Positions 1,683 through 14,740 of a DNA stretch of 64,000 bases are shown in pieces. The notes under the pieces are model-generated. The model was not told the origin of the DNA. It saw only the letters and a program-made list of their open reading frames with translations, and ran no database searches. Origin of the DNA: Paenibacillus xylanexedens (GTDB taxonomy: Bacteria > Bacillota > Bacilli > Paenibacillales > Paenibacillaceae). Position numbers and translations under genes: made by a program. The DNA lies in the NCBI RefSeq assembly GCF_001908275.1, contig NZ_CP018620.1, forward strand, positions 4,650,001 to 4,714,000, written 5' to 3'. Within the stretch, counting starts at the first letter, position 1. The number at the start of each line of letters is the position of its first letter.

Positions 1683-3098
1683 TTATCTATCTTGCAAAGT
1701 TACTTTCTCTCCATTGATTAGCAGGTAGCTCACATCATTCACCGGAATGGTCTTAGGGGATATCCACTTAATGAGATCCTGATCCAGCTGGAGGAAAGCG
1801 GATGCGCCAGACAACTTTGTACCATCCTTCAGGTGTACTTCAATACTCAAGTCCTCCATCCGAATCTTGCTCAGTGCCTCCCCTGTAAGTGTTACGCCAA
1901 CTACGGAAAGGGTTACATTTGCCTGTGAGGCTCCATTTGCATCAAGCTGAACGTTGCCTGTTTTACTCAAACCATTTTGACTCAAGTTAAAGGTCGTTTT
2001 CCAATTTCCCTGCACAACTTCACTTATGCTCGTAAAGCTGCCTTGAAGTCTCAGCTTATCTAATTCGTCAACAGCAGACAGATCATACACATACTCAATG
2101 TAGTCCCCACCAAACCTAACCTGACCTTTCATATAGTGTCCATAGCTAACGGAATATTCAGGTATATCGAGCTTTTGACCTTGCTCATCCGTGAAGTAGA
2201 AATATCCATGATTATACTCGCCTATCTCATTATCTGGATTGATCTGAATGTGTAACTTTCCCTCCACAAAACCTATATTGGAAATATGCACCCAATCAAT
2301 ACCCTCAACAGGGATATTCGTTACATCTTGATGCAGTACCGGAATTGGATCATTTTCCAATTGAAAATCGGTTTTACCTCCCAAGCCACTTATACGATCT
2401 TGATCCACGATATCATAGTTATTGTTTTGCTTTTCTTGTAACAACTGCTCCCAGTCCACTTGTACGTTGTAACCATCTTGTCGAGATGCACCCGACATCA
2501 GCGTATTGATCTGAACGGTAATCCGATTTTTGCTGACTTTTCCTTGAATGAGGAATCGGACAATAGCCGTTTGATTCGCATCATCATAATGAATAATCTG
2601 AGCGTTGTTTGCATTACCTCCGGTTACCCTGTAATCATATACATCCAATGTATCGTCAATGCGATGCCCAGTCAGATCCGATAATGAAACATAGATTTCC
2701 GTTGTATCTCCGTCCCTGACAGCACCTATAACCTCCATGCGAATACCTTGATCTTCACTCACCTGGTGAACAGGCTGAAGAATGCCAATCCGATCTGCAC
2801 CTAGAAAATGAAGAATAGAAGGCAGGTCAATGATGCCCACCGATGCAGCTGCACCTGTAACAAGACATAACGATAACGCAGCGGTTACAGGAATATAGAT
2901 GGCTTTGCGATACTTTTTTCTTTTATTCATGGACTTCTTTGTCTGTGCGGATGGATCGGATGGATATAATACAGGTGGATAAAATGATGTATCTGATCTC
3001 GTAACGGTTGGTGGTTCATTCATCGCCAATTTATCATAGAACAACTTTTTAATATTAAAGAGTTTCTGCTCAGTGAATTCTTTTTCGGATTTTCGCAT
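1683..3098 (-). CDS. DUF4179-type membrane anti-sigma factor
   Basis: The product has 471 residues: an N-terminal cytoplasmic segment of about 65 residues, one membrane span (about residues 67-88, AIYIPVTAALSLCLVTGAAA), and a long extracytoplasmic region of about 380 residues rich in beta-strand. This is the architecture of DUF4179/DUF5643 proteins, which are routinely encoded just after an ECF sigma factor. Only 13 bases separate it from the sigma gene upstream, so the two are co-transcribed. The start at 3098 follows AAGGAGG. It probably holds the sigma factor at the membrane and releases it on an envelope signal; the signal cannot be read from sequence. No protease or zinc (ZAS) motif is visible in the N-terminal part. 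Confidence 0.8.
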   Translation of the reverse strand: MRKSEKEFTEQKLFNIKKLFYDKLAMNEPPTVTRSDTSFYPPVLYPSDPSAQTKKSMNKRKKYRKAIYIPVTAALSLCLVTGAAASVGIIDLPSILHFLGADRIGILQPVHQVSEDQGIRMEVIGAVRDGDTTEIYVSLSDLTGHRIDDTLDVYDYRVTGGNANNAQIIHYDDANQTAIVRFLIQGKVSKNRITVQINTLMSGASRQDGYNVQVDWEQLLQEKQNNNYDIVDQDRISGLGGKTDFQLENDPIPVLHQDVTNIPVEGIDWVHISNIGFVEGKLHIQINPDNEIGEYNHGYFYFTDEQGQKLDIPEYSVSYGHYMKGQVRFGGDYIEYVYDLSAVDELDKLRLQGSFTSISEVVQGNWKTTFNLSQNGLSKTGNVQLDANGASQANVTLSVVGVTLTGEALSKIRMEDLSIEVHLKDGTKLSGASAFLQLDQDLIKWISPKTIPVNDVSYLLINGEKVTLQDR

Positions 3099-3111
3099 TG
3101 GATCGCCTCCT

Positions 3112-3654
3112 TTATTTCCTGTTCATCCACCATGTCCTCAATCGTTGCCTGGAGCGATAAAGCTTGTTATGGACTTGCCTAACGTGTAGGGACAATGCTT
3201 CCGATATCTCATGGGGTCTCTGTCCTTCGTAAAACCGACGTTTCATAATCTCCCGTTCCGGTTCTGGAAAAGATTCAATCATTTGATTAAGTTCCGTATA
3301 TGTCTCTTTACTGACCATCTGAACCAACAAATCATCCGTTTGCACCGAATGAATCTCCTCTTCATATGTAAGCTCAGTTCTTCGATTGAGTTTCCGGTAG
3401 CGATCAATCGCTTTATGTTTTGTGATTGTTGCAAGGTAATTTTTCAGGCTACTTCGCCCAGATTGGAATGCATCCGGATTCTGCCAAAAAGCAAAAAATG
3501 TATCTGCTACGCATTCTTCAATCTCTTCTGTCGATGCATGATGTAGGATGGAATGAGCAATCTTCCATAACAAACCTGCGTAGTGGTTCATCACCCATTC
3601 CATGGCCTCAGGATCACGATTCGCTACTGCCTTCCGTATTTGTTCTTCTTCCAC
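3112..3654 (-). CDS. ECF-type RNA polymerase sigma factor
   Basis: This 180-residue sigma-70-family protein has region 2 at about residues 22-90 (HYAGLLWKIAHSIL, then ADTFFAFWQNP and ITKHKAIDRYRK) and region 4 at about 120-175 (FPEPEREIMKRRFYEGQRP, then an HTH with RQVHNKLYRSRQRL). Regions 1 and 3 are absent, as in ECF factors. Translation starts at a GTG (3654) preceded by GGGAGG. It is followed directly by its probable membrane anti-sigma factor. ECF loci are usually autoregulated. An inverted repeat CACGAG-TG-CTCGTG lies at 3689-3702, about 40 bases upstream, but no clear ECF -35/-10 pair was recognised. The regulon is unknown. Confidence 0.9.
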   Translation of the reverse strand: MEEEQIRKAVANRDPEAMEWVMNHYAGLLWKIAHSILHHASTEEIEECVADTFFAFWQNPDAFQSGRSSLKNYLATITKHKAIDRYRKLNRRTELTYEEEIHSVQTDDLLVQMVSKETYTELNQMIESFPEPEREIMKRRFYEGQRPHEISEALSLHVRQVHNKLYRSRQRLRTWWMNRK

Positions 3655-3759: not shown

Positions 3760-3802
3760 TAAAAAAAGATTTGCAGTGGCCTTGTAGCCTTCTGCAAATC
3801 TT
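3760..3802 (-). terminator. intrinsic terminator of the yeh-like operon
   Basis: On the minus strand an 11-bp perfect stem (AAGATTTGCAG / CTGCAAATCTT) with a 15-base loop is followed by a run of seven T. It lies 75 bases after the last gene of the MoxR/VWA operon and separates it from the ECF sigma gene. Confidence 0.85.
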
Positions 3803-3876
3803 CTTATATTCTATAATACATCTTATTTATTACATCATATCGCTTCATGTGCCTTCGCTTGGAATACTAACCAATA

Positions 3877-4155
3877 TTACGCCTCTTCTTGCACACTCAA
3901 TTGCACATATTGGGTGAGACGACAATACTGAAATAACAGCAACTCTTCATTACCTTGTCCAAGAGCCACGCTACGCCCTTCCTTGATGAGTTGATTCAAC
4001 AACTCATGCAAGAAAGTCATCTGCAACCGCGAGGATTCCGCTGCGAGCTGCTCAAGTACCTCAATATCCCGAATCGTAAACTGAGATAACCCACGTAGGA
4101 GCAACTCTTCCGACCAGCCGTTAATTCTCTGCATAAACTGATTATATTCTTCCAA
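3877..4155 (-). CDS. small protein, last gene of the MoxR/VWA operon
   Basis: A protein of about 92 residues with no recognised family; it looks mostly helical, with a leucine-rich middle (LHELLNQLIKEGRSVALG). The likely start is the TTG at 4155, because GGAGGA sits nine bases before it; the in-frame ATG at 4173 would put that GGAGGA inside the gene. Either way the start overlaps the end of the SWIM gene (by 14 or 32 bases), so translation is coupled and the protein belongs to the operon. A terminator follows. It may be a subunit or regulator of the system encoded upstream; that is inference from position only. Confidence 0.7.
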   Translation of the reverse strand: MEEYNQFMQRINGWSEELLLRGLSQFTIRDIEVLEQLAAESSRLQMTFLHELLNQLIKEGRSVALGQGNEELLLFQYCRLTQYVQLSVQEEA

Positions 4156-5974
4156 GTCTGCCCATCCTCCCATTACCGATATCCAGTTTCAGACTGAGCA
4201 CCGTTTGACCCTTCAGGAAGCTGATTGGGCTAATCCGTTTTGGTTCCACACGCACAAAGGCATAGAAGTGTTCAAGTGATTGAGCACCATATCCTGACTC
4301 CAGTCTTTGGATCATCGTTTGCCAATCAGTTGAATACGGGAGAGTAAGTGCCAAACGTTCTCCTTCGGCACTCTCAACCGTCAGGACAAGATCCTGCGTT
4401 TGTTTGACAAAGTTATGGTCCACAATTCGAGCAACTTTGATCACAGCCAATCGTTCTTTGGGAGCAGCAAACAAGTCGAATGTTCGCGATTCCTCTTGAA
4501 GTACAGACGTTACGTCTTGCATGGTTTTGCCCAGATTCAAAATTTCCACACCCGTTCGTGGCAAAATCGCAAGCTTAGCACCTTCGCCGGAGGATATCCG
4601 GCGTTCTTCATTCACTTTAACGGAATGGAATTGAACTTCTTCACCGACGAACTGGCGAAAGGTCAGATTAGGCAGCCATGGTGTGAATGCACCATAATGC
4701 TCTGTATATGAGAACTGCTGATCATCATAATATACAGCACGTACATCGCTATAGGTGTAAATTTCCTCATCATCGAAACAATAGAAATAATAGGTGATTC
4801 CACGGAAACCGGATCGTGTCTCCCACGCATCAGCTCCCAGTCCATACAGGTGAAGTGAAGGAACCGTAAAGTATTTACTTCGAAAACTGCCAATGAGCTG
4901 ACTCTGCTGAATGACAGACACCTTTTCTTCTTCAAGAACCTGGAGTGCAAGATATAGCTTGCTCACCCGATCCAACATGGATTGCATGGAAAAACGTATA
5001 TGTCTGTTGAAAAACAACTGTAGTTCTCCTTGAATCCCTCGCAAACTGCGTTCTATGTCAGGCAGGTTGCCACTATGAGCAGCGATTGCCAAAGTCTCCA
5101 GTTGTGCCATATAGGACTGAGGAAGGCGGGCCAGTCCCGTCTTCAACAATCCTGCCAGCATAACCCGACATTCCTGTACTGTCTGAAGAGAGAACTTGGC
5201 TTCGTACACCCGCCCACTTAATTCATCCGTGTCATGCAGGCCTCTTAGTACCCGATATCGTAGCAAAGCTTCAAGCTTGGCCATTTTCCCAGCTGTCTGC
5301 GGTACCTTACATAGTGCTTTTGCAAGGCTCGCTTCCTCGGTAAAAGACACCTCGATATTCTGGGTGGTCAGATGAACCGTAAGAAGTGAGTCTTCAATGA
5401 TCTTAATTTCCTCTGGGTATCTCAGTCGGAAAACAACTTCCTCAATCATGGAAGAACTATACGATTTAATTAACACGGTAAGGTCAGACTCCGTCATCCA
5501 GCGGAAGCGAGACTCGATCTCACGTGATACCATATGCGGAATTTCGCTTAGATCGTCCACATTTGATACTAAGTTTGATACTGATTCTTTCACTGATACG
5601 TCTTTAGATACGTCCAACGGATCATTATCCGATATCCCTGAGTACTTATCCAGCGCATGCTTCTCATCTGCATTCATTGAATCCTCTGCCGTATATTCCC
5701 GTTGATCATACAGAATTGCAATCAGCACATGTTTGCAGATATGATCGGCCGGGCATGAGCATTCCCAATGATCCAGCGTATTTTCAAGCGTACATTGTGT
5801 CCCGTCACTGAGCTGACAACTCACAGATGATGCATTCCATGTGTACGTTACACTTACACCATTGTCCAACTCTTTCAAAGACCTTTTGTACAACCCCTTG
5901 TTGGCATACCGAATCAAATAATCCTCCGTACACAGCTTCGAAAAAATCCGGAATTTTTCCTTGAATCCATTCAC
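4142..5974 (-). CDS. SWIM zinc-finger protein (YehQ-like)
   Basis: A 610-residue protein with a SWIM zinc finger at about residues 70-83: WECSCPADHICKHV gives the C-x-C-x(n)-C-x-H ligands C72, C74, C80 and H82. SWIM domains bind nucleic acid or protein. The rest has no motif I can name. It lies 4 bases after the DUF4132 gene and overlaps the next small gene. In E. coli the SWIM protein YehQ is encoded with YehL (AAA+), YehM, YehP (VWA) and YehI (DUF4132), and this locus carries the same set. Its role is unknown; a substrate or nucleic-acid adaptor for the ATPase/VWA pair is a guess. Confidence 0.8.
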   Translation of the reverse strand: MNGFKEKFRIFSKLCTEDYLIRYANKGLYKRSLKELDNGVSVTYTWNASSVSCQLSDGTQCTLENTLDHWECSCPADHICKHVLIAILYDQREYTAEDSMNADEKHALDKYSGISDNDPLDVSKDVSVKESVSNLVSNVDDLSEIPHMVSREIESRFRWMTESDLTVLIKSYSSSMIEEVVFRLRYPEEIKIIEDSLLTVHLTTQNIEVSFTEEASLAKALCKVPQTAGKMAKLEALLRYRVLRGLHDTDELSGRVYEAKFSLQTVQECRVMLAGLLKTGLARLPQSYMAQLETLAIAAHSGNLPDIERSLRGIQGELQLFFNRHIRFSMQSMLDRVSKLYLALQVLEEEKVSVIQQSQLIGSFRSKYFTVPSLHLYGLGADAWETRSGFRGITYYFYCFDDEEIYTYSDVRAVYYDDQQFSYTEHYGAFTPWLPNLTFRQFVGEEVQFHSVKVNEERRISSGEGAKLAILPRTGVEILNLGKTMQDVTSVLQEESRTFDLFAAPKERLAVIKVARIVDHNFVKQTQDLVLTVESAEGERLALTLPYSTDWQTMIQRLESGYGAQSLEHFYAFVRVEPKRISPISFLKGQTVLSLKLDIGNGRMGRLGRI

Positions 5975-5978
5975 GTCA

Positions 5979-8900
5979 TCAACGCCCCGTTGCTCTCAGA
6001 ATGTCGTAGATCGTTTCACTGAACACGCGACCTGGAACGTTGCCTAGAGCAATGGGTTTGTTGTCACCATAATAATAATATTGCTTGTTATTCGGTTTGA
6101 AGAAATGAAGGGATTCCAGGGTAATGTCATCCAATCCCTCGTAATACGTGATGCTCGTACCGCTGAATTGCAATTCTGCAACAAGATCTCCGTACTCTTT
6201 ATAAAATTCATGATACCAGCCGCCGTCCTGTGCCGGTCCTTTGATCCAACCGTATTTCTCCAGTGCTTTGGGGAAAGCCGTTGGTGAAAAATCAGACTCG
6301 GGCAGATGATCGTATTCATTCTTCGTTTTATCCTCATCTTCTGGCTGGTGAATCTCACGATTCAATTGCTCGAATGGCTGCTTGATCTCGTAATCCTCCA
6401 ACTGCGTTGTCCAACCTTCAAGCGTTGCCTGATCCAGTTCCAACGGGTGTATAAGTCCCACTTGCGCATCCGAAGGCAGATCGACCTCATCTTCATCCAC
6501 AGAATTGAAGGTGCCGTCCTCCATATAACGGAAGGTGCTAATCAGAGCGCCATCCTCATACGTTCCCCAGATCAGACCAACAGCAAATTTCTGCATGATT
6601 ACATTTTGTACAAACAATGCTTTCCACTCATCGGCAGACCACAGACGTTGCTTGGACAATGACTCTTCCAGACGCTGCGCCTGAATGTTAACCATGGATT
6701 TGAGATCTTTTTTCAGCTGTGTGAAACGTGACTTGGACTGCGCTGCCAATTCAGGATCATCTTTCTGTGCAGGAGCAGGCAGACTCTTCACGGATTTGCC
6801 CGTTTCTTCATTTAAGACAACGACTTGTAAGTCTCCATTGACCTTAACCAGGAAGGAACGCTCTCCGTAACTCAGCTGCATAGTTCCTTTTTCATCAAAA
6901 CCAAGTGTGGTGACCAGCCGATCTTCGAGTTGTTCCGAGGTAAGTCCCAAATTATCGGCTGCAAGTTGCAACGCTTCTTCTGCTGCACCTTTCACCTGAC
7001 GGTTCTTCACGCCACGTTTGATCTTGTCAATCGCCATAAGAGCAGATGGATCTTTCAGATAAGCGAGCACTTTCACAGCATCTGCTGCAATCGCGCCGCG
7101 GCTGTTTTCTGTCCATTCCTTAATTTGCGGAGCTAAAATATTTACAATCTGAATATCGCCAAAGAGTGCTGATATATACATCACCCATTTCTCTTTTGCA
7201 GGAGCACCTTCCTGAATCCAGACCTGAAGCAGTTCACTTGCAAAACGAGCGAGCGATGCCTCACTTACGTAATCCCGTAATTCATTCAACCGTTCATTAG
7301 GACCGGATGTATGATCCAATGATTGGACCAAAGCATACTGTTTAATCCGGTCATCTAAAGGCTGATTGTCTTCAATACGTATCAGTGAAGGGAGATCTTT
7401 CAAGGACAACCAGCTCAGTCTCGACAACTTTTTGGCATCCGCCTGATCAGCGAGTGCAGCATGGGCATACTCTGGACTTAGATCTGCGGTATCCAGCAGA
7501 ATTTGGATCAAGCTCTTCCAATCGTCGGACTTCTCTTTCTTCAAAAGCTCACCGTACAGTTCCTTGCTGTTTTCCAGACTGCGGATTGCGGTCAGAGCCA
7601 TCTCTTTGATCGCCACTTTTTTCTCCGAGAGGTATACGAGCGTATACAAGTCCTGATCAGGAATTCGGTTGAATTCCGCTAACGCTACGCCATTGGCCTT
7701 TTTGGAAGAATCCTGCAATCCGGCACGAATCGCTTCGGCCAATATTTTCTTCGATAACTCATCACGCTGTTCAAAGGTAATCTCCAGAATTAAAATGCGC
7801 GTATCTGTTGGCAGTTGCTTGTACTGTGTCAGTGCATAGTCCAGATTCTGCTGAATGATTCGGCGGTATTCGTCATGCGGCATGGATTTGTATCTGTAGT
7901 CGGTCATGCCATTAAGTGAGATCAGGCTGGTTAGCAATTTCTCACGTTGCACCTCAGGATCTTGCCCATAACGTTGAAGCAGCTGCTCTCCACTAAACGC
8001 GTATGAATTGTACATGTCCGAGATAATATCCAGTGTCCAATCGGGATGAGTGGTCAGGATTGCGAACCTGCGCATCGCCTCCGAATCCAAGGGCAAAAAA
8101 CTAATACTAATGAGGTTGTGAACACGCTTCTTATCCCGATTCAGTTGATTAAACAACCCGCGACTATTCGGGTCCTCCCAATATTCCTCCAGGGTGTTTT
8201 CCCCACTTAAGTATCTTGCAATCGCAAGTCCTTGACGTCCCCCGTCCAAAGGATGCCGAAGAGCGTTAAATACCGCTTGCTCCAGTGACCCCTCCGCATT
8301 AGGCAATGTCAATCCTTGATCCTCCATGAATTTCTGAATGCAGAGTTTGAGGAATGGCGGTTTCATAATCTCGTATGCTCGAATCGCTTGTTCAGGACGA
8401 TTCGCGATCGCGGATTGTAACATGTTCCAGGATACCGTGTACGAACTAAGCTCGTCCCGCAACATTTCAACCAACTGATAAGGCTCATCCAGAGACACAA
8501 GTCCGGCAAGCAGATCATTTGGACTCTTTGCCCTAGGGTCCATACTCAGCAAGTAACGGCGAACTTCAAGTGGATAAATCTCATGTAATTGATGTATTGA
8601 GTGAAGCAAAACATGCCCAATCTCACTATTTGTATCAAGGAACCGTTGTTTACCTCCACTAATGTTAATCAGGAACAACAAGGCACCACTCACAAGTACC
8701 ATAGTTTGATGGAATACGGTGTTTGAACATTGCTCTTTTGAAGAGAAAGACGTATTGGGATACAGCTCAGCTATGAGCCGACTGCGCTTTTCTTTGAGGA
8801 ATTCATCCTTCAATTCTTGGGATGATCCGTTATGTTTTCCTTGAATATTACTTACCACTACAGGTTCAATCAACGTATGTAGCTCGTCCCGCAACTTATC

Positions 8901-9536
8901 TGGATCATTAGCCATCACATGTTGAAACAACACGGGTAACGATTGAGCAGAAGATTGAACCTCTGCAAGATGAGAAGCCGTGTCACTGAGTCTTGAATAT
9001 AGTTGTAGCAGCATTAACGCATTGATTACATCTCGATAATCCCCCTGGGTGTCAGCCTTTTTGGAATCAAAAAGCCACTGGGCACGCTTTAATTTGCTCT
9101 TTAATTCAGCCGAAATTTCGTTCTCGCCCGCAAACTGTTTGATCTTCTCCAACCGGGCCAACAACCCACCCATGCGATCAGCGCTTTTGCTCTTCCCGCT
9201 CAATCCGTAGGCTTCTGAATCATTTCCCATACAGACAGTAAAAGCATCCGTTCTCCATGAACTTCTTTTGGAATAATTGGATTCCAGATATATCACAATA
9301 GCCCCGGCCCGGTAAAAGATATCTCCATCGTCTTTTTTAGCAAGCTTCATGAGCAGATCAATCGTTTGATACACATAATGACTCGAATTTCCCATCATAT
9401 CCGGGAACTTGTCTGTCGTTCCCAAGACATAATCAATAATTTCGGAGCTTCGATCTGTTTTTAATGAGTACTCGTTTGAACAGGTTACTGCGAATTTCTC
9501 CACCAAAGTTTCAACTGCGCGGTCTGCGGTAAGCAT
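5979..9536 (-). CDS. giant DUF4132 protein (YehI/MolR-like)
   Basis: A protein of about 1185 residues starting at the ATG at 9536, which has AAGGAGG eight bases upstream; the ATG at 9575 lies inside the preceding VWA gene and lacks a site. Most of it is helical and HEAT-like, with a C-terminal region (about the last 250 residues: EKYGWIKGP, GGWYHEFYKEYGD, IYDILRATGR) typical of DUF4132. The E. coli homologue was named MolR (molybdate metabolism regulator), but that function is poorly supported. I see no N-terminal WGR domain, which some family members carry. It sits between the VWA gene (19 bases upstream) and the SWIM gene. Probably a scaffold or effector of the cassette. Confidence 0.8.
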   Translation of the reverse strand: MLTADRAVETLVEKFAVTCSNEYSLKTDRSSEIIDYVLGTTDKFPDMMGNSSHYVYQTIDLLMKLAKKDDGDIFYRAGAIVIYLESNYSKRSSWRTDAFTVCMGNDSEAYGLSGKSKSADRMGGLLARLEKIKQFAGENEISAELKSKLKRAQWLFDSKKADTQGDYRDVINALMLLQLYSRLSDTASHLAEVQSSAQSLPVLFQHVMANDPDKLRDELHTLIEPVVVSNIQGKHNGSSQELKDEFLKEKRSRLIAELYPNTSFSSKEQCSNTVFHQTMVLVSGALLFLINISGGKQRFLDTNSEIGHVLLHSIHQLHEIYPLEVRRYLLSMDPRAKSPNDLLAGLVSLDEPYQLVEMLRDELSSYTVSWNMLQSAIANRPEQAIRAYEIMKPPFLKLCIQKFMEDQGLTLPNAEGSLEQAVFNALRHPLDGGRQGLAIARYLSGENTLEEYWEDPNSRGLFNQLNRDKKRVHNLISISFLPLDSEAMRRFAILTTHPDWTLDIISDMYNSYAFSGEQLLQRYGQDPEVQREKLLTSLISLNGMTDYRYKSMPHDEYRRIIQQNLDYALTQYKQLPTDTRILILEITFEQRDELSKKILAEAIRAGLQDSSKKANGVALAEFNRIPDQDLYTLVYLSEKKVAIKEMALTAIRSLENSKELYGELLKKEKSDDWKSLIQILLDTADLSPEYAHAALADQADAKKLSRLSWLSLKDLPSLIRIEDNQPLDDRIKQYALVQSLDHTSGPNERLNELRDYVSEASLARFASELLQVWIQEGAPAKEKWVMYISALFGDIQIVNILAPQIKEWTENSRGAIAADAVKVLAYLKDPSALMAIDKIKRGVKNRQVKGAAEEALQLAADNLGLTSEQLEDRLVTTLGFDEKGTMQLSYGERSFLVKVNGDLQVVVLNEETGKSVKSLPAPAQKDDPELAAQSKSRFTQLKKDLKSMVNIQAQRLEESLSKQRLWSADEWKALFVQNVIMQKFAVGLIWGTYEDGALISTFRYMEDGTFNSVDEDEVDLPSDAQVGLIHPLELDQATLEGWTTQLEDYEIKQPFEQLNREIHQPEDEDKTKNEYDHLPESDFSPTAFPKALEKYGWIKGPAQDGGWYHEFYKEYGDLVAELQFSGTSITYYEGLDDITLESLHFFKPNNKQYYYYGDNKPIALGNVPGRVFSETIYDILRATGR

Positions 9537-9555
9537 TACACATTCCTCCTTGAAT

Positions 9556-10779
9556 TTAAGTGATGATCTCGCCAATCCAATCCGCGAGTTCGTTAGGCGT
9601 AATTGCTGCTACATGTGCCCCCATATTGGTTAATGTCTGTGCTGCATGTTTGTTATAGACTGAATCCCCGTTAAAATCGAGCGCGGTGAGAATCAGTAAT
9701 TTGCATCCTGCATCGATGATATCTTTACAGGCTTTGTACATTTGCGCGATCGGGTACCCTTCCTCCAGATCACTGACCAGAATAAAGATGGTTTTGCCTG
9801 GATTATCGATTAACGTCTCGCCATATCGCAACGCTTTGGTAATATGTGTCCCCCCACCGAGCTGTACATTCATGAGCACGTCTACGGGGTCTTCCAGTCT
9901 GTCGCTCAGATCAACAACCTGCGTATCAAATATGAATAATTTCGTGCGCAACGCATTCAAGCGATAGAAGATGCTGGCCATCACCGAACTGTAGATGACT
10001 GAATCCAGCATACTGCCACTCTCGTCCACACCAATGATGATGTTCCACTTGTTATGGGGCTGTATATTCCCGTCGAAATACAGACGATCAATCACAAACC
10101 TGCGCTTGTTTTTATCGTAATTCTTCAAATTCTTGGTGATGGTTCGCTTGAAATTCAGATTGCGCAAGGATCGAACTGAACTCGAGGTATAGCGACTGCG
10201 CTTGCCCATGATACTCGCTCGAGTCTGAGATTCCAGCTTGCTGCGTAGCTCTTCAACCACGGTTCGCACGATATCCTTGGCGCTCTTTAACACCTCACCT
10301 TTCATCCGTCCTTTGAACTGCATAATGTTCTTGAGCAGATTCATGTTGGGTTCAAGGGATTCAAGCAGCTTTTTGTCCGTTAACAATTCTGTCAGCCCAT
10401 AACGATCAAGCGCCTGTTTTTCCAATATTTCTACCGTTGGTTTGGGGAATAGATCCCTTACTTTGTGCAGCCATTTTGGTACAGTCAGATTAGACGCACC
10501 GCGTCCTCCCTCTTTTCGGTAACCTTGTTCTTCACCGTATTCACGGTTATACAGATAACCCAGAATCTCATCGATTTCCGTATATTGAAATTCAGCCGAA
10601 GTGTATTGGTCTGTATTACACAACCCTTCTTCCGCCGATTCACCGAGAATCAGACGCCATCGATTTAAGGCTTCAGCAGAATGTTGATCCCCTCGGTTGC
10701 TTCCATCCGGATTGGAACTTTCATTGATTTCTCCGGTTCCTTCCGTTGTCCGATTCGCTTCATTCATATTAGCTTCCAT
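9556..10779 (-). CDS. VWA-domain protein (YehP-like)
   Basis: A 407-residue cytoplasmic protein. A variable N-terminal half of about 240 residues is followed by a C-terminal von Willebrand A domain. The MIDAS metal site is complete: DESGS (D252, S254, S256), T311 in GGGTHITKA and D338 in LVSDLEE. The start at 10779 has AAAGGAG eight bases upstream and overlaps the DUF5682 gene by 16 bases. VWA proteins paired with MoxR AAA+ ATPases act as substrate adaptors in maturation or remodelling reactions. This one corresponds to YehP of the YehL subgroup; the target is unknown. Confidence 0.85.
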   Translation of the reverse strand: MEANMNEANRTTEGTGEINESSNPDGSNRGDQHSAEALNRWRLILGESAEEGLCNTDQYTSAEFQYTEIDEILGYLYNREYGEEQGYRKEGGRGASNLTVPKWLHKVRDLFPKPTVEILEKQALDRYGLTELLTDKKLLESLEPNMNLLKNIMQFKGRMKGEVLKSAKDIVRTVVEELRSKLESQTRASIMGKRSRYTSSSVRSLRNLNFKRTITKNLKNYDKNKRRFVIDRLYFDGNIQPHNKWNIIIGVDESGSMLDSVIYSSVMASIFYRLNALRTKLFIFDTQVVDLSDRLEDPVDVLMNVQLGGGTHITKALRYGETLIDNPGKTIFILVSDLEEGYPIAQMYKACKDIIDAGCKLLILTALDFNGDSVYNKHAAQTLTNMGAHVAAITPNELADWIGEIIT

Positions 10780-13232
10780 GCGGCAAACTCCTTTCGAAGC
10801 GCTTCATCCCACGTCTTGGACTGAATCAGCATCTGCTCATCAACCGCAGGCCTCAACATCTCCTCTGGCTCAACCTGATGCAGACTCGCCACCCGCTCCG
10901 CAATCAAGCCCGTTTCCATTGGTGTAAAGTAGGTGAATGCCAACCGCAATTCCGGTACCATACTGATGAAGTCGTCGTATGACAGCTGTTCAATCAGATA
11001 ATTCAACTCAGACAAGAGCTGATCTTCATATAAAAAAGCGTCACGTGCTACAGTGAATACTCCCTGTAAAAAAAGTGCCGTTTGACGGGTCTGATCCGGT
11101 GTACCATGGATATACCCGCGAGCACGATCAACAATCTCATCCCTAGGCCTGTCACCGAGCCCTGAGGAAATAGCCACACACACACCCTCCAGCTGAGCCG
11201 GAAGCTGGTGATCAGACAGAAGCTCATTCAGGTGAATTCGGAATGTCTCATCCTGAAAATACCCCTCTGATGACTCCGCGAGCATAGCTAGCAGCTTCAA
11301 TCCCTGAATAATGGCTTCATGTTCATCCGGATTAGCTCTGGAGAGCTGTAACAACTTGTCTACGGCATTCCTGTAAGCCTCGGATACCAGCTCAGGGAGT
11401 TGTTGCTCGTCAGATAGTCCCAGCAACCTGCGGTGTTGATGAATTCGGTTCAAGACATGCAGGCTGTTACATAAGGATAGGAAATTCCCGTCGGTTCTCA
11501 GCGCCGAGCGGACCTGTTCATAGAGTTTCATCGCTGTGTCCTGAAGCCCCATGAGTAACGCTTGAAGCATGAGTCGGGCAAGTTCACCGCTATGATGATC
11601 CGGTATTTCTTGCATCTGTTCTTCCATTTTGCGTGTAGCCGCCCCGGCAAGTGTTCCACCATAGAGAGAGTTCTCTATCAATCTGGCTTCAATGCGGGAT
11701 GAGTACATATAAACCCAGGTTTCGCGAACAAGATTCATATCACGCTCTGCGATCCAGTCCGGCCCCGATTGCCGTTTCGCAAATTCCGGAACCAGATAGG
11801 TGATGCATTGAATCAATTGGCTTATCTGACGATGCTCCGGTTTCGCATACAGATCCAGCACTTTTTTGTGTTGACCTGTTGTGCGAATCTGCAGTTTGTA
11901 CTCTGTACAACGCGCCTTGAAGTCTTCCACGATGGGAATACTGAATGAATTGGGAGCCACGCTTCCAATGACGTCTCCTGTCAATAACTGCTGCAGCTCT
12001 TGCAGAGGTTTATCGGTCGCCAAGGTAAGCTCCCCTTTCACAAAGGAAGAGAGTGCTGCATCCATTAACTCATAGACGCCGCCTTCCCTTTTACCACGAA
12101 GCCCGGCAAGACCTTGAATCATGCTGTACGCCTCAATCGCATCACTCGTTGATACATGCTCGTGTCCATCCCTTAATTGGCGCATCAGCCGAGATAACAA
12201 GTCCAGAGCCGTTAGATTATACGGTGTACTCTTTTTGCGAAGCAGCTGGTTCCAGATCTGATCGTAATAATTTACATAAGGCATGCCGCTCGCATATCCA
12301 TTGAGCCGATCCGCTTCAGCAAAGGTATAGACCATCGGGTACATTTGTTGGTGAACCGTATCTGGATTAACCGCACTTTGCTGAGACATTCCTGTTTTAC
12401 CTTGTCCATCCAAACGTTGGTCTGTATGCCGTTTATCCATTTCTGGCTGTTCCAATTTGGATTCATGTTTCTCTGACATCAACAGTCCATACGTATGAAA
12501 TCCACCTGTAATGACAAGCACACGGTCATGCTCCTGCACCGCTTGTTGAATACATTGTCTCATATGTGCTTCTCTTGCCAGATCACCTGAAGACTGTAAT
12601 CGTTCCGTGGAATAACACATTCGGGATAAGGTACAATACGTGAATACATCCTGCACGAATGCCTGAGTGGATTTTTCCAGTCCGCCAATCTCAAACACCT
12701 TTTCCCACAATTCATCAAAACTGCGGCAGTTTGTTTTTTGGCATAATCGGTTAATGAAATCAGACCCCGCAAGCAAGGTTTCGTCCTGAATGGAGATTTC
12801 CTTTTGTTCTGTCTGGCCGGATTTGGATGCACGAGTGGAGAAGTGTTGATAGTCCAGGTCAATAAACTTCGCCGGAATATCCAGCCGTTTTGCTTCTTTC
12901 AAAGCTACATATTCAGGCGAATAACGAAGCATCGGATAATAGCAAGCTTCTCTCTCCAATTCACTCTCATAGGTATAGTACAGACTGACAGGAGGTATCG
13001 TTGCCTCATCACTCAGCACCGAAATTAATGGATTACCGCTCTCCGGTCCTTCGATCAGAATAATATCCGGTTTGTAGTCCCCGATTAATCGTAACAAGTG
13101 ATATGAACATGCAGGGCTATGGTGTCGTATTGGATAATAAACCGTATGATTACTCAGGTTATATACCTGGGACTCGAACAAGGATTGTAACTGCTCAACA
13201 TCAGGGTCCAGAACTGCTGTTAACCGATCCAT
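10764..13232 (-). CDS. DUF5682 family protein (YehM-like)
   Basis: An 822-residue protein whose N-terminal third carries the family signature: YYPIRHHSPACSYHLLRLI, then ILIEGPESG and later RVLVITGGFHTYGL. The paired EGP and GGxH motifs resemble those of TraB/ChaN-like folds, which hints at a metal-dependent hydrolase-like core; that link is my inference. The remaining two thirds are helical. The start at 13232 follows GAGGAG and overlaps the AAA+ gene by 13 bases; the 3' end overlaps the VWA gene. It corresponds in position to E. coli YehM. No function is established. Confidence 0.75.
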   Translation of the reverse strand: MDRLTAVLDPDVEQLQSLFESQVYNLSNHTVYYPIRHHSPACSYHLLRLIGDYKPDIILIEGPESGNPLISVLSDEATIPPVSLYYTYESELEREACYYPMLRYSPEYVALKEAKRLDIPAKFIDLDYQHFSTRASKSGQTEQKEISIQDETLLAGSDFINRLCQKTNCRSFDELWEKVFEIGGLEKSTQAFVQDVFTYCTLSRMCYSTERLQSSGDLAREAHMRQCIQQAVQEHDRVLVITGGFHTYGLLMSEKHESKLEQPEMDKRHTDQRLDGQGKTGMSQQSAVNPDTVHQQMYPMVYTFAEADRLNGYASGMPYVNYYDQIWNQLLRKKSTPYNLTALDLLSRLMRQLRDGHEHVSTSDAIEAYSMIQGLAGLRGKREGGVYELMDAALSSFVKGELTLATDKPLQELQQLLTGDVIGSVAPNSFSIPIVEDFKARCTEYKLQIRTTGQHKKVLDLYAKPEHRQISQLIQCITYLVPEFAKRQSGPDWIAERDMNLVRETWVYMYSSRIEARLIENSLYGGTLAGAATRKMEEQMQEIPDHHSGELARLMLQALLMGLQDTAMKLYEQVRSALRTDGNFLSLCNSLHVLNRIHQHRRLLGLSDEQQLPELVSEAYRNAVDKLLQLSRANPDEHEAIIQGLKLLAMLAESSEGYFQDETFRIHLNELLSDHQLPAQLEGVCVAISSGLGDRPRDEIVDRARGYIHGTPDQTRQTALFLQGVFTVARDAFLYEDQLLSELNYLIEQLSYDDFISMVPELRLAFTYFTPMETGLIAERVASLHQVEPEEMLRPAVDEQMLIQSKTWDEALRKEFAAWKLI

Positions 13233-14320
13233 TTTCTCTCCTCATAATAGTCCTTCCACATTCCCTCTTCTCTGGAACGCTCTTTTACGACCTTGGAGAA
13301 GTAGGTTTTGAGAATGGATAGATCCTTGTCGTTTTCCTTCGCAATGGTGCCCAGCATGTTCTGCACCAACCGATCCAGTGCAATAGCTTTATCTTCGTAA
13401 TAATAGGAAGTCATCGCACTCTGGACATAGACAGACACTGCTTCCGCCGTACTCATGGATGCTTGAGGGGTATCGAGCTTGTATCCTTCCCGTGTCATGC
13501 CGGTGCGCAGTTCCATAAATGTTGTAGCCAGCAATTCAACCACATCAGGGTTAATGTCAATATCAATTCCACTATGTAATAACAGGCTTCGTGCCTGGGA
13601 TTCAATAATTTTGGCTTCCATCTTCACGTTATGAATGGGCTTGATTGTTTCAAAATTGAAGCGACGTTTCAATGCACCACTCATTTCGTTAACACCTTTA
13701 TCCCGAATATTGGCTGTAGCAATGACGTTAAATCCTGGTTGGGCAAACAGTACACCACCGTCCAGTTCAGGAATGCTCATAACCTTGTCACTGAGAATAC
13801 TGATCAGACTATCCTGCGCTTCAGCCGGACAACGTGTAATCTCTTCAAAACGGGTAAGAATACCTTTCTTCATGCCGTTATATAACGGTGATGGCACAAG
13901 TGCCGCTTCCGAAGGGCCTTTATCAAGCAGCATGGCGTAATTCCAGGAATACTTGATCATATCCTCTGTTGTGCCTGCTGTACCTTGAATCGTGTTTAGA
14001 CTGGTACCGGAGATCGCTGCGGTCAGCAGTTCGCTAAGCATGGTCTTGGCTGTCCCGGGTTCTCCCACGAGCATTAATCCTCGATTGCCTGCCAGAGTAA
14101 CCACTGCACGTTCAATTAACACGTCATTGCCATAGAATTTGCGGGTAATCGTGATCTCTTCTCCATTTAAAAGCGCAGGCTTATCCCTGCCAATAATAAA
14201 ATCTCGCACATAGGCGGGAGATAACAGCCAGTTCGGGGGACGTTTCCCCTGATCTTCCTCTCGCAGCGCACGTAATTCAACCTCGTATAATGTCTCGGCG
14301 GGTGGTTTAAGCATCTCCAT
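13220..14320 (-). CDS. MoxR-family AAA+ ATPase (YehL subgroup)
   Basis: First gene of the six-gene operon, about 366 residues from the ATG at 14320. GAGGAG lies upstream; a TTG at 14326 and a GTG at 14341 are alternative starts. The AAA+ core shows Walker A GEPGTAKT (about 86-93), sensor-1 VIATAN with its Asn, and a RRF arginine-finger-like motif. The Walker B position reads LTRFEEI, so the usual Asp before the catalytic Glu appears to be Glu. MoxR ATPases use ATP hydrolysis with VWA partners to remodel or insert cofactors into client proteins, and the VWA partner lies two genes downstream. The client is unknown. Confidence 0.85.
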   Translation of the reverse strand: MEMLKPPAETLYEVELRALREEDQGKRPPNWLLSPAYVRDFIIGRDKPALLNGEEITITRKFYGNDVLIERAVVTLAGNRGLMLVGEPGTAKTMLSELLTAAISGTSLNTIQGTAGTTEDMIKYSWNYAMLLDKGPSEAALVPSPLYNGMKKGILTRFEEITRCPAEAQDSLISILSDKVMSIPELDGGVLFAQPGFNVIATANIRDKGVNEMSGALKRRFNFETIKPIHNVKMEAKIIESQARSLLLHSGIDIDINPDVVELLATTFMELRTGMTREGYKLDTPQASMSTAEAVSVYVQSAMTSYYYEDKAIALDRLVQNMLGTIAKENDKDLSILKTYFSKVVKERSREEGMWKDYYEERKWIG

Positions 14321-14341
14321 CGTCAAGGTGTCTCCTCTCAC

Positions 14342-14636
14342 GTAAACAGATCGTATGTTCTTATTCCTATCATTTTATCACAGCACTCCAGCAACTACCC
14401 GGTAAAACGATAAAAATGGTTGAAACGTCCTTCTTATCAGCACTTCTTCTAAGTCCATGGACATAGCCTCTAGCGCAAATATGAAGGTGAAATATCCTTA
14501 CAGCCGTGCCAACACACTGGTTTCGGATCAGAATCAGCATGCTTATTACCCATTTAAAAGCATTGTAGGCCATATGACCTTAGGAATCATTACACTTTCG
14601 ATCATGTCTTTCAACCAAATGATGCCGATTATTACA
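14342..14636. other. gap upstream of the yeh-like operon
   Basis: About 300 bases between the AAA+ gene and the terminator of the aldo/keto reductase gene. It should contain the operon promoter, but no convincing -35/-10 pair was recognised. A plus-strand open frame of 81 codons crosses the right part of the gap and runs through the terminator hairpin; it is treated as non-coding. Confidence 0.4.
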
Positions 14637-14672
14637 AAGAAGACACAGGCCATCAGCAGCCTGTGTCTTCTT
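14637..14672 (-). terminator. terminator of the aldo/keto reductase gene
   Basis: Perfect 14-bp stem (AAGAAGACACAGGC and its complement) with an 8-base loop. On the minus strand it is followed by a T-rich TTCTTTGTAAT. It lies 70 bases after the aldo/keto reductase stop codon. Confidence 0.75.
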
Positions 14673-14740
14673 ATATGTTCAAATTTCACCCAATATCTAT
14701 GAATTTTGATCGAAACAACCAATCTCTCATAAGTTCCTAC

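Follow-up and report, generated by a model that had tools for sequence, protein, structure and literature searches.

A conserved MoxR-VWA gene cassette in Paenibacillus xylanexedens with a predicted TraB/Tiki-type domain and a possible link to DNA damage

In Escherichia coli, the adjacent genes yehI-yehK-yehL-yehM-yehP-yehQ form the closest described relative of the system reported here; yehM and yehI are present in approximately 95% of complete E. coli genomes, and we know of no established role for either gene. The cluster includes MoxR and VWA families; MoxR proteins are generally chaperone-like, and MoxR-VWA pairs are ATP-driven remodelers, as far as the available parts of two sources describe them (PMC3893208, PMC13036017). 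We analyzed a stretch of 64,000 nucleotides (nt) from Paenibacillus xylanexedens (contig NZ_CP018620.1, positions 4,650,001 to 4,714,000), referred to here as the window, in which positions 3877 to 14341 of the minus strand are occupied by six open reading frames (ORFs) in the order MoxR, DUF5682, VWA, DUF4132, SWIM, and an ORF of 98 amino acids (aa). With a probability that we put at roughly 0.4, this cassette encodes one ATP-driven protein-remodeling machine with probable induction by DNA damage, which would pull on a protein target and probably cleave it.

The MoxR, DUF5682, and VWA genes of the window are adjacent and co-directional, and the unit also contains DUF4132 and SWIM. A preliminary description of this DNA had claimed one conserved multi-protein system and had named the same families in E. 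coli yehI/L/M/P/Q; the E. coli locus bears out the latter claim, and the counts that follow support the former. A total of 75 Paenibacillus genomes were searched for DUF4132 within 8 kb of each place encoding DUF5682, after removal of 2/56 rows (G401 and G449), each the rear half of a DUF5682 gene that is split. DUF5682 was present in 52/75 genomes, and DUF4132 lay within 8 kb at 51/54 DUF5682 places. The remaining three places (G406, G407, and G414) represent a second form, with DUF5691 in place of DUF4132 and the gene order SWIM-DUF5691-MoxR-DUF5682-VWA. This form is annotated in Rhizobium etli, Deinococcus taeanensis, and, up to DUF5682, Methylosinus, and was recognized by family models elsewhere; genome G406 carries both forms at distant sites (L121 and L122). 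Another 60 DUF4132 places in the genus were distal, and 13 genomes carry a distal DUF4132 and no DUF5682; thus, DUF4132 alone is not diagnostic. The one distal place examined, in the source genome, encodes a second DUF4132 protein of 1662 aa (DUF5724-DUF4132-DUF7737; G000 C1:1907457-1912442, or L117:6457-11442), the gene of which adjoins a molybdopterin oxidoreductase gene.

A census of loci covered 43 in total, 42 fetched via DUF5682 and that of E. coli K-12 retrieved through its accession; near-duplicates were counted, and the family models had been trained partly on the same loci. MoxR, DUF5682, VWA, DUF4132, and SWIM were all present at 27/43 loci, and 12/43 had MoxR, DUF5682, VWA, and SWIM together with DUF5691, which was called by a purpose-made model at 11 of them (two weakly, at 1e-6 and 6e-6) and by Pfam at L200. 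Two of the others were Streptomyces variants, and two were cut by record ends. Co-occurrence across distant phyla was thus observed, with the core in six of them (Bacillota, Pseudomonadota, Actinomycetota, Deinococcota, Fusobacteriota, and Bacteroidota). Because DUF5691 can replace DUF4132, the core is MoxR, DUF5682, VWA, and SWIM, and the preliminary description is corrected on this point. Genes of the set also occur fused, DUF5682 to VWA in Streptomyces (L035 and L201) and SWIM to DUF5691 in Hymenobacter (L200), and these fusions argue for direct contact within each predicted pair. We regard it as nearly certain that the cassette is a single system. A contig scan with a single-sequence query returned nine close Paenibacillus loci, with DUF5682 proteins 87 to 98% identical. 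The yeh cluster was also found on an E. coli conjugative plasmid (L037), together with btsSR and mlrA in an IS26-flanked block with resistance genes alongside. One locus with frameshifted ORFs (L012) was omitted from alignments A2 and A3 and kept in the upstream, genus, and locus counts, the VWA gene of L033 consists of three ORF fragments, and many of the motif counts below take the locus of the same genome twice.

Members of the Tiki/TraB superfamily are marked by two GxxH motifs and a Glu. The DUF5682 protein of the cassette (YehM-like; 10764 to 13232, minus strand; PF18934, 4.5e-93) contains a predicted TraB/Tiki-type domain at approximately residues 28 to 330, and we consider a Tiki-type fold of its N terminus very probable. 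In HHalign comparisons, the values of which refer to single profile pairs without a database search, the N terminus matched a 13-protein TraB profile at 95.1% (E value, 3.4e-8) over 230 colinear columns, pairing GxRH with GTAH, Glu with Glu, RExxM with RDxxM, and GGxH with GAxH. Among 24 family clusters from our loci, DUF5682 itself scored 100% and 22 unrelated clusters at most 4.7%; a second TraB cluster, at 81.2%, is not independent, consisting of two proteins, each fetched twice, that were picked through weak DUF5682 matches. The C-terminal part matched none of three Tiki families (at most 0.4%). Pfam gave weak cross-matches, ChaN in 2/19 DUF5682 members (best E value, 0.01), and two TraB proteins matched the DUF5682 model at approximately 4e-4. 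A relative of solved structure was also sought by sequence, and the best match (E value, 0.12) was taken as spurious.

Twelve residues (R36, H37, E61, P106, E107, F123, D125, R220, E221, M224, G243, and H246) were invariant in 19/19 aligned DUF5682 homologues, including the catalytic-type His, Glu, Arg, and His and the second GxxH of the superfamily. Patterns for the catalytic-type motifs matched 73 to 76 of the 76 DUF5682 ORFs (duplicates included), and some of the misses are explained by truncated ORFs or by flaws of the patterns. The accessible part of one source describes a His-Glu pair in active Tiki proteins and metal dependence of Tiki itself, and it also indicates that a superfamily member can be without the catalytic set (PMC6254334). 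Hydrolase activity of DUF5682 is a plausible prediction. The protein had been proposed as a substrate of the ATPase and VWA proteins; it is more likely the enzyme.

The other products carry the motifs expected of their families. The MoxR-type AAA+ ATPase (YehL-like; 13220 to 14341, minus strand; AAA_5, 4.9e-35) has homologous ORFs that all keep Walker A (74/74) and EE[ILV], which resembles Walker B (74/74, or 68 with a stricter pattern). The CoxE-like VWA protein (YehP-like; 9556 to 10779, minus strand; VWA_CoxE, 1.6e-42) bears the metal ion-dependent adhesion site (MIDAS) motif DxSGS, and DxSxS was present in 74/74 homologous ORFs (duplicates included for both families). The SWIM zinc-finger protein (YehQ-like; 4142 to 5974, minus strand) was called by motif, because its Pfam score was below the cut-off (E value, 0.067) yet its zinc ligands, at 5729 to 5761, are intact (CSCPADHICKH). 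The pattern CxCx(n)CxH was found in 28/29 SWIM ORFs of the DUF4132 type, the single miss coming from the rear part of a gene that is split, and in 8/8 DUF5691-type proteins examined; SWIM proteins of both forms align over 453 columns at 94.7% in profile comparison. The DUF4132 protein (YehI-like; 5979 to 9575, minus strand; PF13569, 3.9e-49), with its domain at residues 926 to 1110, is possibly an alpha-solenoid, since a Proteus homologue (L024) matched HEAT_2 at 2.5e-7; a HEAT-like match was also seen, below the cut-off, in one protein at the DUF5691 position (L110). We infer that DUF4132 and DUF5691 could be interchangeable solenoid scaffolds. Homologues from Sinorhizobium and Allorhizobium carry DUF4132 joined to a WGR domain, and E. 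coli yehF encodes WGR as well; in PARP proteins, WGR is a DNA-break sensor.

Upstream of the MoxR gene, a LexA-like site, GAACATACGATCTGTT, lies at 14345 to 14360 (minus strand), with a perfect GAAC half and a second half that reads GATC for GTTC. A presumed extended -10 element, TGATAAAAT, identified by eye at 14372 to 14380 (minus strand), is identical in 11/11 close relatives. The motif GAACATA[C/T]GATC was present in 21/21 upstream regions, as GAACATACGATC in 20/21 Paenibacillaceae regions and as GAACATATGATC in the other one. Beyond the presumed promoter on its upstream side, most of the Paenibacillus type-A (DUF4132-form) loci compared share a second conserved block, GAAGGACGTTTCAACCATTTTT (window positions approximately 14400 to 14440, minus strand). 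A set of LexA boxes for the genus was collected from lexA (25/25 loci, each with four or more sites when one mismatch was allowed) and recA (24/24 loci examined; 25 were fetched and L198 was left out), and 30 distinct sites from these regions, with the cassette left out, yielded a scoring matrix. The cassette site scored 12.8 bits, the top value among the 63,987 14-mers of the window and 0.3 above the next; it lies toward the lower end of the scores of the training sites, of which two sites scored 3.1 and 10.5 and the others 12.7 to 18.1. The LexA-like site of L144 scored 18.7. In the source genome, AAGAACATACGTTCGGTTTA lies before a gene for a Y-family polymerase (IMS, 7.1e-45), and the cassette's AAGAACATACGATCTGTTTA differs from it at two positions; another LexA-like sequence, GAACATACGTTC, is found approximately 700 nt ahead of a gene whose product has an ATP-dependent DNA ligase domain (L145:1501-2838). 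Before the DUF5691-type cassettes of Paenibacillus, a perfect GAAC-N4-GTTC was found in 3/3 cases, compared with 12/1066 background windows. The box is at -52 in L123, where by eye it abuts TATAAT, and at -132 in L121 and L199, which are near-identical and so leave two distinct cassettes.

Hints of damage control were also found outside Paenibacillaceae. In E. coli, the LexA-like AACTGGATAAAATTACAGGG (L023:4448-4467) is located just before yehF (4475), the WGR gene heading the cluster. We take molR to be this yeh locus. It is listed as LexA-regulated in the parts of two sources that were available (PMC11039860, PMC4576408), and the E. coli hint rests on these published lists because sites with one mismatch are not rare there (19/149 windows). 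The available text of another source reports that mitomycin C raised DRA0166, a DUF4132 protein of Deinococcus radiodurans, in an IrrE-dependent manner; in our Deinococcus locus L031, TACGCCAGAAACATA at -35 agrees by eye at 12/15 positions with the DdrO consensus as far as shown there (PMC8533742). On balance, damage control of the cassette in Paenibacillus appears somewhat more probable than its absence, and the "stress" function first suggested is narrowed to a possible DNA damage response. If true, the damage link would explain why LexA and DdrO, which are unrelated damage regulators, are each linked to parts of the same gene set.

These elements can be arranged into a tentative mechanism. 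A LexA-type repressor would hold the promoter, which damage would free. MoxR, as a hexamer, and the VWA protein with its MIDAS motif would act as a chaperone pair that grips and pulls the target, as their families suggest. DUF5682, bound to VWA, would supply a TraB/Tiki-type hydrolase for cutting or maturing the target, a role extrapolated from the domain found by profile, and the DUF4132 scaffold (elsewhere DUF5691), together with the SWIM zinc finger, would pick the target. Since some DUF4132 proteins carry WGR, the target is plausibly a protein on damaged DNA.

Several observations weigh against this reading. In the putative hydrolase, the Gly of the first GxxH is replaced by Pro or Ser in 4/19 rows, all Paenibacillaceae, the window protein (PIRH) included. 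Profiles of the EreA type (0.9%) and of ChaN (1.2%) showed no significant match to DUF5682; EreA and TraB themselves reached just 5.5%. Homology between DUF4132 and DUF5691 was not detected (4.9% in profile comparison). The inner mismatch of the type-A LexA-like site (GATC for GTTC) recurs in 1/30 training sites, that of L166, a probable chance match. A matrix made without the L166 site scored the cassette site at 11.4 bits instead of 12.8 and ranked it fifth instead of first in the window, and the number of non-cassette 14-mers scoring as high rose from 10 to 15 of 343,440. No site with at most one mismatch was present at 12/18 cassette heads scanned, including all five alphaproteobacterial ones. 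Several box patterns were tried, and one-mismatch matches were common for some of them (10/126 windows for the Proteus pattern, in addition to the E. coli count given above). A scan allowing up to two mismatches to CGAAC-N4-GTTCG gave no match before the MoxR gene of the window, and the exact LexA palindrome was not enriched in the source genome (4 places versus 18 for a reversed control).

A first alternative is metal or cofactor insertion, as in NorQD or CoxDE, in which MoxR and VWA would open a client enzyme and the Tiki-like domain would deliver metal or heme as ChaN does. The VWA protein is indeed CoxE-like, ChaN is titled heme-binding within the Tiki superfamily in Pfam, and the available parts of two sources describe NorQD-driven metal insertion (PMC13036017) and yehM mutations among those of copper-evolved E. 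coli (PMC12409786). We nevertheless consider this explanation unlikely: the profile match of DUF5682 is to TraB and not to ChaN, no recurring metalloenzyme gene was seen beside the cassette in the annotated loci examined (other loci carry no annotation), and, in the available text, neither moeA nor moeB of D. radiodurans responded along with the DUF4132 gene (PMC8533742).

A chaperone for the assembly of large complexes, similar to RavA-ViaA and without proteolysis, is likewise an improbable explanation. Here the Tiki-like domain would be a binding module, and damage control would be incidental or absent. The generally chaperone-like character of MoxR proteins (PMC3893208) and the Tiki-superfamily members without a catalytic set (PMC6254334), both taken from partly available sources, are compatible with such a role; the invariance of the motif residues in 19/19 DUF5682 homologues, and of the patterns in nearly all ORFs, speaks for a kept catalytic set instead.

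We also weighed a role in conflict or phage defense, with the cassette as a member of the MoxR-VWA ternary class and the Tiki-like hydrolase as the effector that the machine would activate. Systems of this class are described in the available text of one source (PMC7159879), and the DUF4132 protein weakly matched the PADLOC candidate PDC-S24 (E value, 6.2e-4; 103 residues), and the SWIM protein weakly matched DruF2 (0.036). Plasmid copies (L026, L033, and L200) lie near restriction, toxin-antitoxin, or nuclease genes, and DUF5682 was above its cut-off in just 8/398 Bacillota genomes (three further matches were weak, two of them to TraB proteins). Against these, yehM was present at a cover of at least 80% in 5166/5426 E. 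coli genomes, the gene set was nearly fixed across the 43 loci, and the genomic site is stable, a P450 gene being kept beside the cassette at 17/20 and an aldo/keto reductase gene at 16/20 Paenibacillaceae loci (within the fetched flank). The variable effectors and patchy strain spread expected of a ternary conflict system were accordingly not seen in the E. coli and locus counts, and VMAP, iSTAND, FtsH, and beta-propeller components were not above cut-off in the six proteins (Pfam, PADLOC, and NCBIfam); a bpMoxR model matched the cassette MoxR below its cut-off. One viral-contig scan with one motif pattern gave 10 pattern matches with no relative among them. The conflict function floated in the preliminary description is thus weakened by the near-universal yehM and the viral scan, retains the weak PDC-S24 match, and is doubtful. 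A viral origin was rejected on the same scan; the sole match in a phage record, an unverified "Bacteriophage sp." fecal scaffold (L036, MT835988.1) with MoxR-DUF5682-VWA beside a DUF5717 protein, may be bacterial DNA. Least probable is a dedicated SOS-inducible machine for pulling out and digesting proteins trapped on damaged DNA, whether in DNA-protein crosslinks or in complexes that have stalled, for which the WGR/SWIM parts would find the lesion, MoxR-VWA would pull, and Tiki-fold DUF5682 would cut.

The six genes probably form one co-transcribed unit, because they overlap and hairpins flank the cassette. With the longest ORFs, neighbors overlap by 13, 16, 20, and 32 nt or are separated by one 4-nt gap. 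The tight packing first described therefore stands, except that the SWIM gene and the small ORF overlap by 32 nt rather than by fewer than 20. The likely start of the MoxR gene is the ATG at 14320, as chosen originally, which gives 366 aa, with AGGAGA approximately 10 nt upstream by eye. The terminator claimed for all six genes was found after the last one as a hairpin of -21.6 kcal/mol followed by a T-run (3763 to 3805, minus strand), and a separate hairpin of -25.8 kcal/mol terminates the aldo/keto reductase gene upstream of the cassette (approximately 14638 to 14675, minus strand); a first terminator scan with a loop limit of 8 listed neither. Just past the cassette terminator, window positions 1683 to 3654 hold a gene for an extracytoplasmic function (ECF)-type sigma factor and then a gene with a weak DUF4179 match (E value, 0.069).

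The sixth gene (3877 to 4173, minus strand; 98 aa) is real and, in our sample, specific to Paenibacillaceae. It was present at 20/20 Paenibacillaceae DUF4132-type loci, nine of which had trained its model (the most distant match, L113, scored 2e-8), and was absent from the 7 other DUF4132-type and the 12 DUF5691-type loci, as a lineage-specific subunit would be. The ratio of nonsynonymous to synonymous substitution rates (dN/dS) relative to the window was 0.00 to 0.22 in the 7/12 comparisons with measurable dS (68 codons beyond the SWIM overlap). The protein matched no family in Pfam, PADLOC, or NCBIfam, and no homologue was recognized outside Paenibacillaceae; we infer a Paenibacillaceae accessory. 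Homology to YehK, to an ORF of 78 aa in Deinococcus, or to an internal stretch of the SWIM protein was rejected, the comparisons giving no match or none better than other families. The small gene is missing from the E. coli set, as the preliminary description had it, although E. coli has an extra small gene of its own, yehK, unrelated by profile test. Small genes between MoxR and DUF5682 also occur in the DUF5691 form (L200:8371-8979 in Hymenobacter and L031:9753-9986 in Deinococcus) and belong to no Pfam family.

In the open-access literature searched, no mention of DUF5682 was found and DUF4132 was mentioned rarely; DUF5691 was not mentioned among the matches listed. Neither an enzyme assignment for DUF5682 nor the Paenibacillus damage link was found there. 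The parts of the cassette are known families, and their combination is known in E. coli; the TraB/Tiki match of DUF5682 is previously unnoted. A catalytic-type domain with named residues and a possible damage context make the role of DUF5682 and the cassette testable in a laboratory strain. Compared with the E. coli cluster, with which it shares the five families in adjacent genes, the cassette has protein identities of 48% for MoxR (YehL, tblastn), 41% for VWA, and 25% for DUF5682. The E. coli cluster differs in that the DUF4132 gene is first, with a pseudogene copy, yehH, and yehF ahead, and in that yehK stands where Paenibacillus has the 98-aa gene. RavA-ViaA and NorQ-NorD share the MoxR ATPase with a VWA partner as the expected engine, whereas no hydrolase, scaffold, or SWIM partner is mentioned for them in the available parts of the sources. 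The MoxR-vWA ternary systems (VMAP, iSTAND, FtsH, and beta-propeller) likewise combine MoxR and vWA with a further conserved partner, and the main text, in the part available, does not use the terms SWIM, Tiki, TraB, YehL, or WGR (PMC7159879); the partners here are instead DUF5682, DUF4132/DUF5691, and SWIM. With the TraB/PrgY/GumN and Tiki-superfamily hydrolases, DUF5682 shares the order His, Glu, Arg-acidic-xxM, GxxH over 230 columns; it differs from them in being approximately 450 residues longer and, at the intact loci examined, in having MoxR and VWA as neighbors.

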